From Nostoc sp. PCC 7107 (lineage in GTDB: Bacteria > Cyanobacteriota > Cyanobacteriia > Cyanobacteriales > Nostocaceae), in assembly GCF_000316625.1 (NCBI RefSeq), contig NC_019676.1, positions 6,218,501 to 6,282,500 of the forward strand: a stretch of DNA of 64,000 nucleotides. The letters are read 5' to 3'. Position numbers and translations under genes: made by a program. This document shows, piece by piece, positions 34,744 to 41,452 of the stretch (positions are counted from its first letter, which is position 1; the number at the start of each line of letters is the position of its first letter). Below the pieces are notes generated by a model. That model had not been told where the DNA came from. It searched no databases and was given only the letters and a program-made list of their open reading frames with translations.

Positions 34744-36327
34744 TTACCGATTAATCCGAATCAACTCTGTCAGAATACTATCCAAGCTACCATTAACTTG
34801 AATTTTTTCAATCTTCTCGGCAATTCGTTCTAGTATTTCTAGTTCTTTTAACCGCAATGCGACGGGATTATCTTCCATAACTCTGGCAGTATTTAACATA
34901 CTGCGAGTTGCAGCCGTTTCTTCACGACGACGAACTACGTTGGCTTGGGCGGTTTTTTCCGCTTCTACCACTTTACTCAAAATGGTTTTAATTTCACCAG
35001 GAAGAATAATATCTTTCACCCCTACCGAATCGACTTCAATTCCATAGTCAGCGGTTCTTTGGCTGATGTATTCAAAAATACTATTATCAATCGCGCCTTT
35101 ATCCTCTAGTAACGCATCTAAGGTTCGTTCGCCGACTGCGCCACGCAAAGCAAATTGTAGCTCTTTGTATAAGTAGCCAACAATATCCGCTAACCCATTT
35201 TTGGCTCTCAGAGGGTCGATGATGCGATATCCAGCAGTTAAATTTAAGCGTAACGGTACCTTATCTTTAGACAGAATATCTTGACCAGATACTTCTAAGG
35301 TTTGCTGACGTAGATCAAAAACTTGTGTTTGCACAGAACGCCCGAACACCCACCAGACGTGCATTCCTGGTTGCAATTGTGTTTGAAACTCTTGATTGAT
35401 ATACAGTAGCCCAAGGTACTGTGCTGGAACTTCGCAGATATGCAAACAATTACGGCTCAAAGTGAGAGTTTCTGGTAAACCTGAAACTAATTCAGCAATT
35501 AAACGTGGTGGTAATGTTGCATCAGTATTGATGTCAATCACTTCTACTTCCATACCCCGCCAAAATAGTTTGCGACTACATGGTTTGAGGATAGCAATTA
35601 CTTTACCTTGATAACGAGCGATCGCTACTTGTTGATTTTGTAATTGCACTGTCTCACAATAAGCCGCGACAAACTCAGGATGTCGTTCAATCAGCACCTC
35701 TTCTAAAGGAAAATCTGGATTTGGGACAATCCGGCTGAGAGTTCGTACTGTCACATCTCGATCAGTAGCCCAAAAAGCATACTCACCAGATTCTAGCGGC
35801 TGTATAAAGTTATTCTGCACATACAGTAAACCAATCTCATACTCGGAAATTTGGAATTTCTTAATTCCATTCAAGGCAATTCCCCGTAATTGTTGCACAA
35901 ATTCAGCAGGTAATGCCAAACTTTCATTCAAGTTAAAAAGGTGAGTTTCTACCTCAATAAAACCACGCCAAAAAGCTCTGAGTTGATTTGGTGGAACACT
36001 AACCCAATTTTGACCCCAGTGGACTAAGGCTGCTTGATTGAATCCAGTTCTTACTACTACAAGATGTTCCTGTAACTCTGAACTGTGATTTCGCAGCAAT
36101 AGTTCCAAGTTTTCAATCTTAGCTTCTGGTTGGTTGAGGTTATAGGTTGTGACTTGCCAATGCTTGCCAAAATAAGTGTAAGTACCAGGCTGCAAAATTT
36201 TCTTAAAATCACTGCGGTGATATAAGATACCAATTTCGTTAGGTTTGATATAGAACGTTTTCCACATAGTAATTCCCATAGATAACTTAGGCAGTTGTAG
36301 CCTAGAAAGAAGATTTGATAAAAACAT
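34744..36327 (-). CDS. Slipin/SPFH-domain protein with repeated N-terminal module
   Basis: 527 residues. The C-terminal ~200 residues are an SPFH/band-7 domain ending in a helical oligomerisation stretch (VVEAEKTAQANVVRRREETAATRSMLN). The N-terminal half contains a ~135-residue module repeated: YEIGLLYxxxxFxxxLxxGxYxxW-like segments occur at 31-64, 164-197 and 304-339. A second sub-motif (FWRG with preceding basic residues) is at about 119 and 256. SPFH proteins scaffold membrane microdomains and proteases. No clear transmembrane helix is seen. The start could also be M17 (36279) or M21. Confidence 0.82.
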   Translation of the reverse strand: MFLSNLLSRLQLPKLSMGITMWKTFYIKPNEIGILYHRSDFKKILQPGTYTYFGKHWQVTTYNLNQPEAKIENLELLLRNHSSELQEHLVVVRTGFNQAALVHWGQNWVSVPPNQLRAFWRGFIEVETHLFNLNESLALPAEFVQQLRGIALNGIKKFQISEYEIGLLYVQNNFIQPLESGEYAFWATDRDVTVRTLSRIVPNPDFPLEEVLIERHPEFVAAYCETVQLQNQQVAIARYQGKVIAILKPCSRKLFWRGMEVEVIDINTDATLPPRLIAELVSGLPETLTLSRNCLHICEVPAQYLGLLYINQEFQTQLQPGMHVWWVFGRSVQTQVFDLRQQTLEVSGQDILSKDKVPLRLNLTAGYRIIDPLRAKNGLADIVGYLYKELQFALRGAVGERTLDALLEDKGAIDNSIFEYISQRTADYGIEVDSVGVKDIILPGEIKTILSKVVEAEKTAQANVVRRREETAATRSMLNTARVMEDNPVALRLKELEILERIAEKIEKIQVNGSLDSILTELIRINR

Positions 36328-36542
36328 TTATCAGTTTCGCTTGAAGAATTTACCTGGATGTTTTCTGGCAAGTAGGGAAAGCTTGATGTATCACAAATTG
36401 CCTGACACACCCTGTAATTGAGCTAATAAGTTTCTAACATCTGTAATATACATAATACATTGTAATTTTAAACTCCGCAAATGTTGAAATTTATTTACTA
36501 CTCATCTGTAATACTCTGTACTACAAAGAGAGTTATACCAAT

Positions 36543-37133
36543 TCAAAAAATGTTTGCGACAGATAAGGCATTGAGGATGAAGTCATAACCAGTCAAAGAA
36601 GCAGCAATTTGAGGAGTGAGGAGAGCTAGGAGTTGAGCAACCTTGGTTTGCAGATGCTCGCCTGTTATCAAATAGCTCCCATTTCAAGTCTTGCTTGAGA
36701 TATTCCCAAACGCGCTCTATGGGATTGAGTTCAGGAGAATGAGCAGGCTGGAACAAAAGAACAATATTCTCTGGAATTTGTAAACGTTTAGCTTGATGAA
36801 ATAAGCCGTTATCAACTTGGAGAATGTTAAGTGATTTGGGATAACAGGCAGCGAACTCGTTCAAAAATTGTTGGTAGCATTCGGTATCAACATGAGAAAA
36901 CTGCCAAAATAAACTTTCCCCAGTAAGTGGTTCAACTGCTCCATATAGCCAGAACGCTTTAAATTGCCACTGCCAATCACCAATAGGCTTAACTCCGGGA
37001 AGAGTAATTTTACGTCCTTCAATGGTTTTGAGTCCAAATCGACTCTCATCTTGTACAAAATAACGAATATTTTCGTACTGAGGCAAGATAATGGCACTGT
37101 ATTGAGCAATTAATTGCAAGTCATCACCGAGTT
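36543..37133 (-). pseudogene. IS630 transposase OrfB (DDE domain), frameshifted
   Basis: The DDE catalytic half: VQDESRFGLK, ILQVDNGLFHQAK and SPELNPIERVWEYL carry the three acidic residues. As sequenced the frame ends at 36583 with an aberrant Ser/Cys-rich tail. A one-base shift at about 36655-36665 restores a sensible ending (LQTKVAQLLALLTPQIAASL...) with a stop at 36543-36545, next to the terminal repeat. The copy is therefore probably inactive unless the shift is a sequencing error. Confidence 0.8.
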
Positions 37134-37619
37134 TTTTTTAAAAGACTCTAGTTTTTCTTCGTCCTGTTTTCGGTTACGCGGACGTGGGACTTTCAGCTTG
37201 GCTTTGAGCCTGTAACGTGCCAGATGATGTACAGTTGCGTACTCAGCTTGCACACCCAAGGTTTTTTCTAACCAATGTTGTATTTGTGTGTACCGTTGAA
37301 ACCCACCTTCTGGTTGTTCGAGTTGTTTTTTCAAACTCGATACAGCCCAATCTGGTATTGCTCTTTTTCGACCTGAACTCGTTCCAAATTCAACAACCGC
37401 CTCAATTCCTCCTTCTCGATAATCTGCCAACCATCGATGTACTGTAGCTCGATGTTTTCCCAAGATTTTAGCAATCTCACTTACACTCATTTCTTGCCCT
37501 TTAATCAGATATAGGGCTTGTATACGTTCTTTGCTCCGAGACTGTTTTTGATGTTTGAGCAACTTCTCTAGTTCCTCGACACTTTCTTCTATCTCGATTT
37601 GTGTTACCCCTACCATCAC
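37110..37619 (-). CDS. IS630 transposase OrfA (HTH domain)
   Basis: 169 residues. A homeodomain-like HTH (about 35-70: ERIQALYLIKGQEMSVSEIAKILGKHRATVHRWLADY) is followed by a second winged region and the LEKTLGVQAEYATVHHL stretch. It binds the terminal repeats. Near its end the minus strand reads CTTTTAAAAAAAAC, containing A-AAA-AAC, a classical -1 slip site. This would fuse it to OrfB through the LGDDLQLIAQ frame. Confidence 0.9.
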   Translation of the reverse strand: MMVGVTQIEIEESVEELEKLLKHQKQSRSKERIQALYLIKGQEMSVSEIAKILGKHRATVHRWLADYREGGIEAVVEFGTSSGRKRAIPDWAVSSLKKQLEQPEGGFQRYTQIQHWLEKTLGVQAEYATVHHLARYRLKAKLKVPRPRNRKQDEEKLESFKKNSVMTCN

Positions 37620-37806
37620 ATACCCTGAATGCTACTTCTGTCTATTTTTACCATTTGTCGCATTCTTTTTTCAAATTGGTATTAGCGATCATCGCTAGAT
37701 GAAACATAAAAAATGAGGGTGCGTTAGGCTTCAAACCTTAACACACCCTGAATCTACACCCTGATACTTTAAAAAATAAGGTGTAGCAACTTGACATTTC
37801 CTAAAA

Positions 37807-38379
37807 TTAATACCAGCCTCTATTAGGTGATTCTGGAATCACCGCATAAGCATCAATTTCAAACAACATACCATCCAGAGCCAATCTCGGAACAGGAATC
37901 AGTGTGTTTGCAGGTGGTGTGTTACCCCACAAATTACCAATTTCGCGTCCTAATGGAATTAATTTTTCTTGGGTGTGATTTACTATCAGCACAGTTGTTT
38001 TAACTACATCTTTAGGTCTTGCACCGGCTGCATTTAAGGCAAACCGCAGATTTTGAAAAGCCCTGACTAATTGCCCTTCGTAGTCACTAGACACAAGATT
38101 TCCTTGTAAGTCTGACCCAAATTGACCAGAAATATACACAGTTCTTGTTCTTGGTGGTGTAATTGCTATGTGACTATAGCCATTTTGAGGAGCATTATAT
38201 AAAGTTGGCGGGTTCAGCAAAGTCACATCTCTATTTGCATTACCCTGAGCGACTACTTCCTTTTGTGTTCCTGCAACTAAGGCGGTACCTAATCCGCTAC
38301 CTCCTAGCCACAAAAGAGCATTTCGCCGTGAAAATTTTGTCACTATTGAATTGACTGCACTGGTGATACGTTGAGTCAT
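37807..38379 (-). CDS. RidA/YjgF family protein with Tat signal
   Basis: 190 residues. A twin-arginine signal (SRRNALLWLGGSGLGTALVAG, about 18-38) precedes a complete RidA fold (about 55-185) with YISGQ, AFQNLRFALNAAG, DVVKTTVLI and a late Arg in PRLALDGMLFEIDAYAV. Cytosolic RidA hydrolyses reactive enamine/imine intermediates of PLP enzymes; an exported version must act elsewhere, and its substrate is unknown. It stands alone downstream of the retron region. Confidence 0.88.
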   Translation of the reverse strand: MTQRITSAVNSIVTKFSRRNALLWLGGSGLGTALVAGTQKEVVAQGNANRDVTLLNPPTLYNAPQNGYSHIAITPPRTRTVYISGQFGSDLQGNLVSSDYEGQLVRAFQNLRFALNAAGARPKDVVKTTVLIVNHTQEKLIPLGREIGNLWGNTPPANTLIPVPRLALDGMLFEIDAYAVIPESPNRGWY

Positions 38380-38688
38380 TGAAGCTCCGTAGATATTAAG
38401 TTATTTATTTTTGACTAGGCTCAAATTCTATTATGTAGTTAATATGCCTCAAAAATCACCACAAATCCCACTAATTGGGTGCAATTACGCAACGAATATA
38501 CTAACTTTAAAATATCTTTAATATTTGACTAATTGGTCTAAAAAATTTAGAATTTTTGAAAAAAATCGCTACTTTTACAAAATTTTTGCTGTGCTTGGTT
38601 TTCTGAGTACACAAATAATATCAGCATCAAATTGGATTGCTTTAATTTATTATGAGTAATTTTGGAAAAATACCATATATCTAATTTT
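38380..38688. other. AT-rich intergenic region, ridA-like promoter side
   Basis: 309 bp between the ridA-like start and the second retron ncRNA copy. It is rich in A/T tracts (AAAAAATTTAG, GAAAAAAATCG). No RT-coding sequence follows the second ncRNA copy here. Confidence 0.4.
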
Positions 38689-38970
38689 AAACTCTGCAAA
38701 TGTCAGTGTTTACAGTTGAGTTGCGGGCAAAAGCCTCTCCAAAACTGGATTAAGATTGTTGCTAATTTCTGGAAACTACCCAAAGATAATCTCAAAAAAG
38801 ATAGCAAATCTCAAATATGCCGTTCAGTTTGTCAGTTCCAGAAAACTGGATGTGACCAACGAAGGGACATACTCAAAATTAAGGAGGAAACAATTGCACT
38901 GGCTTCCTGGCTGTTACTAACGAAGATTATGAGTAATCAACGGTAGCAGAACACGAACATCGCAGAGTTT
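38689..38970 (-). ncRNA. Second retron msr-msd-like ncRNA copy (no RT directly after it)
   Basis: A 282-nt segment strongly similar to the ncRNA upstream of the RT (40358-40632) and in the same orientation. Its ends are complementary: AAACTCTGC (38689-38697) and GCAGAGTTT (38962-38970), matching retron a1/a2 repeats. The best-conserved core on the RNA strand runs from CTGAACGGCATATTTGAG through TTTTTTGAGATTATC and GGGTAGTTTC to AATCCAGTTTTGGAG. The 5' part diverges but keeps hairpin-forming ability. It lies about 350 bp downstream of the RT stop. Confidence 0.75.
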
Positions 38971-39074
38971 ACTAACCAAAATAGATTTTTTCTTTCTTGG
39001 TTTTTCCCGATTCTGTGAGTGCGAAATAGCCTTGTCCCTAACAAGGTGCCTTTATCCAAGGCGAGGTGTTGTGT

Positions 39075-39147
39075 GAGAAAATACAGGGTTTTTACCTGTT
39101 ACCAATCGGCGATACACCGATCGCTCACTTAGTGAAATAACTTTCTC
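39075..39147 (-). other. Degenerate tRNA-like element
   Basis: 73 nt that fold as a cloverleaf: acceptor GAGAAAG/TTTTCTC, anticodon stem ATCGG/CCGAT with 7-nt loop TGTATCG, and T stem ACAGG/CCTGT with 7-nt loop TAAAAAC. It aligns with the tRNA-Met-like gene at 40797-40868 but lacks U33 and the TTC consensus of the T loop. It is therefore a tRNA-derived structure and not a working tRNA. Confidence 0.55.
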
Positions 39148-39171
39148 ATGACTAGTTACATATCAGGCAGC

Positions 39172-39244
39172 GGTATACGTTCAATCCAATGGTTGACGTA
39201 CCAGTTGAGCATACAGAACTCAAACTAGAGCTTTGCACAATGTA
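39172..39244 (-). other. Structured tail element, copy 2
   Basis: Homologous to 40974-41045. On the RNA strand GAGT/GCTC closes a 7-nt loop (39207-39221). GT-CAA pairs with TTG-A-AC around an 8-nt loop. Both stems show base-pair-preserving differences from the other copy. Confidence 0.55.
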
Positions 39245-39316
39245 TTTCTAATCGATACTTAATTTAACTCAAGCAGATATGCAGAAACAGACGGTAATTA
39301 CTTAAGGAAATACTTC

Positions 39317-40354
39317 TCAATTTTTCTTGCCATATTTTTTCTGAATACGCTGAATTTGTTGTTGGAACTCTGCACCTTTTTCGGGGTTTACCATTGCGAC
39401 AAAGTTGGCGAATCCGGTGATTGAGGTGAGAAGATGAGAAGATTTACCCCAATATTTACCGTCTAACCCTTCATTTTCTATTTGATGTAGAGTTGCACGG
39501 AAGTTTTTTAATTTTTTCCGAGAAATATTAGTTTTTTCGTTGACGATAATCCCCGTCACTTCTTGCTGTTGAGAGTTTCGCAAAATGCGGGTTTTGTCTG
39601 GGTTGATGGCAAATCCTTCGTCAGAGATAATGGATTGAGCTTGTTTAATGAAATTACTGGTATATTTAACATTCTCACCTGATGCTGAAAATGTTAAATC
39701 ATCAACATAACGAGTGTAGGTAAAAGTAGATTTTGTGGCGATCGCACTTAAACGCTCATCTAAACTCCGACAAATAATATTAGTAATTGTGGGGCTGGCT
39801 GGGGAGCCTTGGGGAAGATGACGTTGCTTGAGTTCAACAAAGTCTATTTTACCGTTTACGTTGCGTTCTTCAACTACGGGTGCAGTACACAATAGCCCAA
39901 AGATTGTAGCAACAGATGAAGAATAACCGAAAGATTGAAATAATCCTTTAACACGCTGATATGTAATAGCCGAGAAAAAATCTTGTAAATCAAGGTTAAT
40001 AATTATTTTTGCACCAACATGAGGGGTAGCATTAGTGATGATGGAGCGATCGCCACAAAAACCATGTGCGGCATTATTAATGGCAATTTTTTGTAAGATA
40101 TTCTGCAAAATCCAGTTTTGAGCGCGTTTTAAATCCGGCAATGGTGCAGAAATAATTCGCGTTCCTGCAATTTTTTTTGCAGTTTTGAAGTGAATGTAAT
40201 GTGAAATCTGGGAACCTTGAGAATTAAATGCTAAAAAACGAAGTCGATCAATACTAATTTTCATAGCCGCTGCAATTTGCTCGGCATTATATATATCTAA
40301 ATTGTATTTTTTTAACTGTTCTATATTTTCTTGCGTATTATTTTTCCAACTCAT
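39317..40354 (-). CDS. Retron reverse transcriptase
   Basis: 345 residues from ATG 40354; a longer frame to 40477 would translate the ncRNA and is rejected. RT motifs in order: LDLQDFF (121-127), QGSPASP (182-188) and catalytic YVDD (216-219). Both retron-diagnostic motifs are present: NAxxH as NATPH (108-112) and VTG (266-268). The C-terminal ~60 residues are a thumb-like helical end (YWGKSSHLLTSITGFANFV) with no extra domain. The enzyme should reverse-transcribe the adjacent msr-msd RNA into msDNA. The start codon is 3 nt beyond the ncRNA 3' repeat. No accessory effector gene is adjacent, whereas most defence retrons have one. Confidence 0.93.
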   Translation of the reverse strand: MSWKNNTQENIEQLKKYNLDIYNAEQIAAAMKISIDRLRFLAFNSQGSQISHYIHFKTAKKIAGTRIISAPLPDLKRAQNWILQNILQKIAINNAAHGFCGDRSIITNATPHVGAKIIINLDLQDFFSAITYQRVKGLFQSFGYSSSVATIFGLLCTAPVVEERNVNGKIDFVELKQRHLPQGSPASPTITNIICRSLDERLSAIATKSTFTYTRYVDDLTFSASGENVKYTSNFIKQAQSIISDEGFAINPDKTRILRNSQQQEVTGIIVNEKTNISRKKLKNFRATLHQIENEGLDGKYWGKSSHLLTSITGFANFVAMVNPEKGAEFQQQIQRIQKKYGKKN

Positions 40355-40357
40355 TTT

Positions 40358-40632
40358 AAAACTCTGCAAATGTAGGTTTTTACAGTTCAGTTGCGGGCAA
40401 ATGTATCTCCAAAACTGGATTAAGATTGTTACTACTTTCTTGAAACTACCCAAAGATAATCTCAAAAAAGACAGCAACGCTCAAATATGCCGTTCAGCTT
40501 GCCCATTCTAGATAACTGGAAGTAAACGAAGGACATACTCAAGTTGAAGAGAAAACATTTGCACAGGCTCCTTAACTGTGACTACCAACACCACGAGGTG
40601 ATATTAGTAGTCAACCTACAATGCAGAGTTTT
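40358..40632 (-). ncRNA. Retron msr-msd ncRNA upstream of the RT
   Basis: 275 nt ending 3 nt before the RT start codon. The ends are perfect 11-bp inverted repeats, AAAACTCTGCA (40358-40368) and TGCAGAGTTTT (40622-40632), which fits the a1/a2 arms that prime msDNA synthesis. On the RNA strand the 5' third forms a hairpin, GACTAC pairing with GTAGTC and containing CACC-TCGT-GGTG. A second stem begins at GGAG and closes with CTC. The exact msr/msd border and branching G cannot be fixed by eye. A diverged copy lies at 38689-38970. Confidence 0.82.
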
Positions 40633-40649
40633 TACTCAAATTCAATTAG

Positions 40650-40668
40650 CTACCCCTTGACGGGGTAG
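40650..40668. terminator. Hairpin between tRNA-like array and retron ncRNA
   Basis: CTACCCC (40650-40656) and GGGGTAG (40662-40668) form a 7-bp stem. The T-run (40671-40676) is on the plus strand. On the minus strand it may be a processing or pausing structure before the ncRNA. Confidence 0.5.
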
Positions 40669-40696
40669 TGTTTTTTAACCTGGAAAGGTTTTTGGT

Positions 40697-40767
40697 GGCA
40701 GAAAGTGGATTTGAACCACTGATCTTTGGGGACAAGCCCAACGAGCTAACCAACTGCTCTATTCCGC
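40697..40767 (-). other. tRNA-like element with contracted anticodon loop
   Basis: The minus strand begins GCGGAAT and ends TTTCTGC (acceptor with one wobble and one mismatch). The D arm AGC...GCT and T arm TGG-TTCAAAT-CCA are standard. The anticodon arm TTGGG/CCCAA encloses only six bases (CTTGTC), so no normal anticodon can be presented. It is probably a decayed or repurposed tRNA-Met-type gene. Confidence 0.6.
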
Positions 40768-40796
40768 AAATTTGTCTTTTAACCCGGACAGGGTGG

Positions 40797-40868
40797 GAGA
40801 AAGTACAGGAATTGAACCTGCAACACATCGATTATGAGTCGATTGCTCTACCAGTGAGCTAACTTTCA
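40797..40868 (-). tRNA. tRNA-like gene with CAT anticodon (Met or Ile2 type)
   Basis: Cloverleaf on the minus strand: acceptor TGAAAGT/ACTTTCT (T1:T72 mismatch), D arm GCTC-ACTGGTA-GAGC, anticodon stem ATCGA/TCGAT with loop CTCATAA (CAT at 40834-40836), T arm CAGG-TTCAATT-CCTG. It is the best formed of the array. The unpaired first acceptor position and the degenerate neighbours leave its function in translation uncertain. Confidence 0.65.
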
Positions 40869-40877
40869 GGGTGTTGG

Positions 40878-40947
40878 TGTTTGATGTAGGAGTCGAACCT
40901 ACGACCAGCCGAGTACCTCGGATGCTCTACCACTGAGCTAATCAAGC
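40878..40947 (-). other. tRNA-like element, Asn-type body, anticodon loop lost
   Basis: Acceptor GCTTGAT/ATCAAAC (one mismatch), D arm GCTC-AGTGGTA-GAGC and T arm GTAGG-TTCGACT-CCTAC are intact. The anticodon arm CCGAG/CTCGG has only three unpaired bases (GTA). It cannot decode normally. Confidence 0.6.
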
Positions 40948-40973
40948 GATGGAGTAACAACCAATTACTCTAC

Positions 40974-41045
40974 GGTATACGCACAATCCAGAGGTTGGCG
41001 CACCAGTTGGGTATAGAGAACCCGAACCATAGTTGAGAAAATGTA
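40974..41045 (-). other. Structured tail element, copy 1
   Basis: Homologous to 39172-39244. On the RNA strand GGGT/ACCC closes a 7-nt loop (41009-41023), and GC-CAA pairs with TTG-T-GC. Compared with copy 2, a G-C pair becomes A-U in the first stem and C-G becomes U-A in the second. This indicates that the structure was kept. Confidence 0.55.
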
Positions 41046-41452
41046 TTATTACCTTGTAACTTAATGTAGCACAAAGGAATTGAAAGTCAACTTATTGCTG
41101 GTGGTGGTGCGATCGCACTACTATAAGACTTTAGTTAGAAGAAAACAGAATTTTCACTCAGTACAAATATTATTTTTGACTGAATCCAGACAGATTTAAC
41201 TGATATCTACAGCTAATGATAGAGTTCATTCGTATCTTCAATATTTAGCATCAAAGTAGTCACAAATATTAATCCATCCACTAAAAGCTGTATTTTAAAT
41301 ATTATGCCTGTTAACTGCTTGACACAGCTAAATAAGAATACAGTTACCAGAATCAATATAGTATTTCTAAATCATTCGTAAACAAACAGATACCCAACTT
41401 CTTAAAGAAGTCGGGTATCTAAAACTTTTACAATTCACAAAAGCGAAATTAT
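41046..41452. other. Intergenic region between tRNA-like array and ABC operon
   Basis: 407 bp holding the terminator of the exporter operon (41388-41420) and presumably the promoter of the minus-strand tRNA-like/retron transcript. No ORF or repeat otherwise. Confidence 0.4.
41388..41420 (-). terminator. Terminator of the ABC-2 exporter operon
   Basis: AGATACCC-A-ACTTCTT pairs with AAGAAGT-C-GGGTATCT (one internal mismatch). It lies 33 bp after the last permease stop and is followed on the minus strand by TGTTTGTTT. Confidence 0.75.

Follow-up and report, generated by a model that had tools for sequence, protein, structure and literature searches.

The second copy of a structured RNA lying downstream of a retron-type reverse transcriptase (RT) in Nostoc sp. 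PCC 7107 (64,000-nt stretch of DNA, hereafter the window) is a member of a conserved, tRNA-bearing structured RNA family, and belongs to the RT-linked kind. A retron RT has probably been re-partnered here with an RNA that carries tRNA-like parts and is associated with a Band_7 protein, the class-2 unit being the RNA of the RT; a probability of roughly 0.55 is assigned to this reading, which was reached by comparison of sequences.

The two RNA copies and their units

The class-2 RNA domain of the window (nc2; 38686..38972, minus strand) was 83.75% identical over 240 nt to the class-1 domain (nc1; 40356..40633, minus strand, ending at the RT start), the direct repeat including a 146-nt block at 90% identity. 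Both domains and the RT (39317..40354) are on the minus strand, so that nc2 is downstream of the RT. A second homologue in the same orientation behind the RT, diverged in its 5' third, had been described in the sequence-only reading, and the comparison of nc1 with nc2 confirmed both points, the differences being concentrated in that third. The terminal arms AAACTCTGC/GCAGAGTTT are complementary in nc1 and in nc2, where their retention had been claimed, and the proposed hairpins of nc2 were in agreement with a fold more stable than that of 200 shuffles (z −7.0; nc1, −11.0, 200 shuffles likewise). A 94-aa open reading frame spans the nc2 segment.

A profile of the two RNAs (built from the window and L087–L093; the eight loci L094–L101 are independent of it) placed both copies, flanking the RT, in the window and in 15 relatives (L087–L101), which supplied the comparison with related genomes that had been suggested; a locus with a broken RT (L104) gave one RNA copy by this profile. 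Nostoc sp. FACHB-280 and Nostoc spongiaeforme FACHB-130 also have both copies. In the 15 downstream copies (15 loci), 95.5% of cells were kept paired, and random decay of homologues with loss of the arms, also considered in the sequence-only reading, was not seen. The covariation counts given here are biased towards the structures, since the consensus structures were derived from the same alignments (A1 and A2; L098 was omitted as near-identical to L095): cells changed on both sides numbered 80 against 34.4 in shuffles for the second-copy set (0/500 as high) and 64 against 21.8 for the first-copy set (0/500 as high), and changes on both sides were located at 15 of 68 pairs of the second-copy structure (15 rows) and at 13 of 75 pairs of the first-copy structure (16 rows). 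The covariation that had been asked about was found in part: cells changed on both sides were in excess, and further pair types were not above shuffles (second copies, 46 vs 48.7, 491/500 as high; first copies, 478/500 as high). By number of pairs, the second copies gave no clear excess either (15 vs 12.6; 47/500 as high). Random decay of nc2 is ruled out by covariation together with synteny.

The RNA domain is the last part of a larger unit in which a leader is followed by one or more tRNA-like parts and then by the RNA. The leader was present in 82 of 86 units, and a tRNA was called by ARAGORN at most 500 nt upstream of 73 of the 86 RNA copies. Units in which a further hairpin, H, immediately precedes the RNA are termed class 2 (30/86); their order is leader, tRNA-like, H and an RNA domain of ~285 nt. 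The nc2 feature thus exceeds the segment first noticed, with an upstream hairpin, a tRNA-like and a leader at 39029–39221. Element H (39029..39063, minus strand) consists of two short hairpins and ends in CCTTGTTAGGGACAAGG; the tRNA-like (39074..39148, minus strand; fold z −5.1, 0/200 shuffles; alignment) is a cloverleaf with a decayed T-loop, for which no call was returned by ARAGORN; the conserved leader (39170..39221, minus strand) was located by alignment, its upper end being counted on the printed sequence. The alignment of class-2 5' regions (A4) was made from 17 of 28.

The class-1 unit of the window, also on the minus strand, has a conserved leader (40973..41022) and three tRNA-likes: T1 (40875..40947; GTA, anticodon arm two bases shorter), T2 (40794..40868; CAT) and T3 (40693..40768; two-base anticodon according to ARAGORN). 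Shortened anticodon arms were found in the first and third tRNA-likes of several loci, the window included, and because of them decoding by these tRNA-likes appears unlikely; anticodons at corresponding tRNA-like places vary widely among loci. A dense array of tRNA genes is located elsewhere in the same genome (G000:C1:3484810-3487444).

On the other side of nc2, a 22-nt stretch nearly identical (95%) to the nc2 end was found at 36463–36484 (also 37807–38379), beyond a Rid/L-PSP gene; the Rid/L-PSP segment looks as if it had been inserted at the 3' end of nc2 with a short duplication. A transposase element (36535–37682; inverted ends, HTH and DDE_3 in two frames), which we take to be IS630-like, separates the Rid gene from the Band_7 gene.

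An RNA family with a Band_7 partner

With nc1 as DNA query, a match was obtained in 101 of 217 Nostocaceae genomes (up to three candidates per genome scored), and only 17 of the 101 had an RT of the window kind at the locus. Relatives of the RT (E ≤ 1e-40) occurred in 50 of the 217 genomes, 17 of these being the RNA-linked loci (an open RT at 16, a broken one at the other); the RNA family was not found at 26 other RT loci from the same set that were fetched (L010–L031, L102, L103, L105, L106). At the level of the order, 388 genomes were sampled and the RNA was matched in 58, of which 31 belong to other families, some of the matches being short and weak. All 20 solo loci fetched, which have the RNA with its closing arms, had 1–4 tRNA genes on the RNA strand within the stretch, and at none of these 20 did the RT search give a match. 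As evidence of a retron template the closing arms do not count, because they are present in RT-less copies as well: an end-to-end pairing run of at least 7 was reached by 33 of 37 RT-less copies and by 81 of all 86 copies, a test that is weak alone because 27% of shuffles reach the same run.

In the window, only tRNA was matched in Rfam at the gathering score; at E ≤ 1, in 36300–41300, tRNA was joined by sub-threshold YrlA and Plastid-ycf2 matches, over the tRNA-likes only. A known Rfam RNA was rejected, the RNA domains being unmatched in Rfam, and a plasmid- or phage-borne RNA was rejected as well, the class-1 copy having no match in 50,697 phage records and none in plasmid records.

The usual companion of the RNA is a Band_7/SPFH protein, of membrane-scaffold type and in the window of 527 aa (34744..36327, minus strand; Pfam PF01145, E 5.4e-30; synteny; co-occurrence). 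Both were present in 99 of the 217 genomes, the RNA only in 2, Band_7 only in 6 and neither in 110; genomes and loci are related by descent, and P values from such counts are too optimistic. A Band_7/SPFH gene of ~525 aa was found downstream, in the fetched stretch, at 57 of 63 loci (picked by hand from match lists, not random). In three genomes (G001, G012, G157) the RNA and Band_7 are at least 20 kb apart, in a fourth (G166) they are on different contigs, and both are kept in all four; the pattern fits partners. Band_7 was found at loci with and without the RT. When 37 loci were compared for families frequent at RT-bearing loci and absent from RT-less ones, only the RT itself was returned.

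Burroughs and Aravind are said to have described, in 2016 (NAR), SPFH/Band-7 modules with tRNA-like RNA. The likeness is a Band_7 protein beside tRNA-like RNA genes; the present loci differ in the ~280-nt structured domain after the tRNA-likes, in having no adjacent RNA ligase, and in the retron RT that joins some of them. The RNA and Band_7 could be a tRNA-sensing or RNA-repair scaffold that the RT only tunes. Such a scaffold would agree with these modules, with the co-occurrence of RNA and Band_7 where the RT is missing and with the wide variation of anticodons, but no RNA ligase was found beside the locus, the two RtcB genes of the genome both lying elsewhere; we regard it as very improbable.

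Large structured RNAs also include GOLLD and ROOL, which according to PMC12286853 are often near tRNA islands, with tRNAs sometimes inside GOLLD linkers. Size, structure and the association with tRNA are shared; the window RNA domains have no Rfam match, the class-1 RNA has no phage match, and the tie to Band_7 is a further difference.

The reverse transcriptase and the type XIII hairpin

The RT of the window (39317..40354, minus strand; 345 aa from ATG) was assigned to the retron type by PADLOC (RT_XIII, E 1.3e-154) and by the RT tree (89 rows kept; duplicates, broken RTs and short matches left out), in which it is inside the type XIII clade. It matched the Ec86 retron RT in PDB with E 1.1e-48 and contains NNAAH, YVDD and VTG, which we take to be motifs of retron-type RTs. 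An in-frame TTG would extend it upstream into nc1. The dN/dS values of 0.16–0.32 (six pairs) indicate that the RT is under purifying selection.

Canonical type XIII relatives mostly have an N-terminal extension of ~127 aa, which the window RT does not have. Short RTs make up one clade (99/93) of 24 rows, of which 23 have the RNA in the fetched stretch and the remaining one lies at a contig end. Before the aligned core they have 0–56 aa, where canonical relatives from cyanobacteria mostly have ~131; short RTs also occur in some distant rows of other kinds. At L144, L145 and L154, RTs with the N-terminal extension stand beside the RNA and are placed in a separate part of the tree, so that RNA-linked RTs occupy two places in it.

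A profile of the canonical ncRNA (~190 nt) matched 26 of 39 upstream regions of other RT relatives, from 24 distinct loci and with two of the matches no longer than ~50 nt, and gave no match in the window or at any short-RT locus, an absence less sharp than it looks, the other 13 of the 39 having been missed too. The candidate of nc2 as a canonical type XIII msr-msd was dropped on this profile. This ~190-nt RNA, with its hairpin in a constant position, is common to canonical type XIII RTs (L013–L048 and others) across phyla, its hosts being cyanobacteria, Acidobacteriota, Myxococcota, Pseudomonadota and others. The loop and stem rule located the hairpin at that position in 20 of 26 rows, with compensatory changes in the stem (GGACGG..CCGTCC, GGATGA..TCATCC, GAATGG..CCATTC).

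The label "msr-msd", under which the second copy had first been described, could not be kept: the RNA occurs in 101 of 217 genomes with the RT at only 17, and the ncRNA of canonical type XIII retrons is not the same RNA. The unusual arrangement beside a retron-type RT is, on the other hand, agreed. The same two observations bear on the reading of the locus as an ordinary retron with two msr-msd templates, one msDNA being made from each copy. That both RNAs flank a retron RT, and that in the window and in L087, L088 and L089 the class-1 RNA stops where the RT begins, would suit such a retron. Yet the RNA with its arms is also found where there is no such RT, and at L152, L160, L161, L190 and L191 the only copy found is the one behind the RT; two templates are thus considered improbable.

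A frequent core of the canonical hairpin, CGGUG(K)AUCGCCG (K = G/U), is the anticodon arm of the class-2 tRNA-like (39103–39123 in the window). Type XIII retrons resemble the window locus in RT sequence and phylogeny and in this hairpin, and differ from it in the extension of the RT, in the upstream ncRNA and in the place of the hairpin, which in the class-2 unit is inside a tRNA-like. When the same loop and a stem of at least four were required, the hairpin was found in 28 of 30 class-2 units against 2 of 56 class-1 units (L196, L197); the class-2 units that failed the rule were L092, whose spacer is shortened, and L147, with a single change in the loop. The exact 13-mer occurred 34 times in 875,583 bp (fetched loci from L087 on, without duplicates, and 14 kb of the window), with 0 occurrences outside the units and the type XIII ncRNAs. 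Palindromes of the GCGATCGC kind are common in cyanobacteria and could help to make part of the shared hairpin. Working tRNAs have U33; the hairpin-bearing anticodon arm of class 2 does not. This shared hairpin is the strongest clue that the RT may work with the class-2 RNA. In a literature search covering few subscription titles, no report was recognised on the family, on the type XIII ncRNA, on paired retron ncRNAs or on tRNA-like RNA with SPFH.

Linkage of the RT to class 2

A class-2 unit was directly behind the RT at 26 of 27 RT-bearing loci (L161, with the RT in two frames, counted among them), 144–674 nt away; the exception, L154, had an RT with a truncated class-2 unit only. Among the 36 other loci, which include L104 with its broken RT, class 2 was found at four (L146, L155, L163 and L199); no RT was seen at L146, L155 or L163, and the genome of L199 has an RT at another contig end. 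The order of RT and class-2 unit is constant, whether the resident unit follows them (L144, L145, L147) or precedes them (window, L087–L101). At L163 and L146, tandem units, one of each class, precede Band_7, and no RT is present in the fetched stretch; these tandems perhaps arose after loss of the RT.

Within each of two groups of genomes, the trees sort the copies by position rather than by genome, and the two groups split from each other before their copies do, which implies duplication or homogenisation in each group, more than once. RT-less relatives have one copy, which in these two groups falls with the upstream copies (L119, L120; L132, L136); there the upstream copy has the look of a resident, and the downstream one of an addition. 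The division is less clean in family f2, where two RT-less copies that have no H (L157, L198) group with downstream copies.

These data also bear on nc2 as a decaying remnant. The sequence-only reading had offered a second retron that had lost its RT, and the company of the RT at 26 of the 27 loci contradicts it; a leftover of a duplication is the other form of the same reading. Some loss is visible: the T-loop of the window class-2 tRNA-like is decayed, and in genus g38 the class-2 domain has no first stem-loop. Set against this are a structure kept with covariation in 15 copies, an RT flanked by one copy on either side in the window and in 15 relatives, and position-specific clades inside each genome group, and a remnant of either origin is hardly credible. 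It was further observed that the class-2 RNA of g38 (L093–L101), having lost that stem-loop, has kept the closing helix.

A constant order on either side of the resident unit, at 144–674 nt, is also what a passenger cassette would give, that is, an RT and class-2 unit that recombine together at the RNA locus, the enzyme and the RNA being functionally unconnected. Not expected of a passenger are the type XIII hairpin within the tRNA-like of class 2, the retention of RT and class-2 unit together in several families and the purifying selection on the RT, and the RT's own ncRNA was not found at the short-RT loci; the cassette is rated unlikely. For the re-partnering of the RT with class 2, the tree of 84 RNA domains is an adverse result: copies behind the RT do not form a single clade (10 label changes), and confidence in the re-partnered RT has been lowered for that reason.

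If the RT has been re-partnered, the type XIII hairpin in the tRNA-like anticodon arm would be the point at which the class-2 RNA is recognised and bound by the RT. Priming would then follow, and part of the class-2 unit would be copied into cDNA; the Band_7 scaffold may hold the particle in a complex that acts as a sensor, by analogy with msDNA in retrons, any role in defence being equally conditional, and the class-1 copy would serve a function independent of the RT. The full form of this proposal, a tRNA-scaffolded retron in which the recognition hairpin has moved into a tRNA-like that replaces the msr, the adjoining RNA is copied and an RT-independent sister RNA stands alongside, is put forward tentatively, at somewhat less than an even chance.

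Three subjects that are usually separate, namely retron RTs, tRNA-like RNAs and SPFH/Band_7 scaffolds, are linked by this locus. If the RT uses the class-2 RNA, a retron would be seen to have swapped its RNA partner with one hairpin retained, and a direct test of recognition by type XIII RTs would be given. The RT aside, the RNA family is large and conserved, is without an Rfam match in the window, and is nearly always found with Band_7 (217 genomes); this near-constant company makes an RNA-protein complex directly testable.
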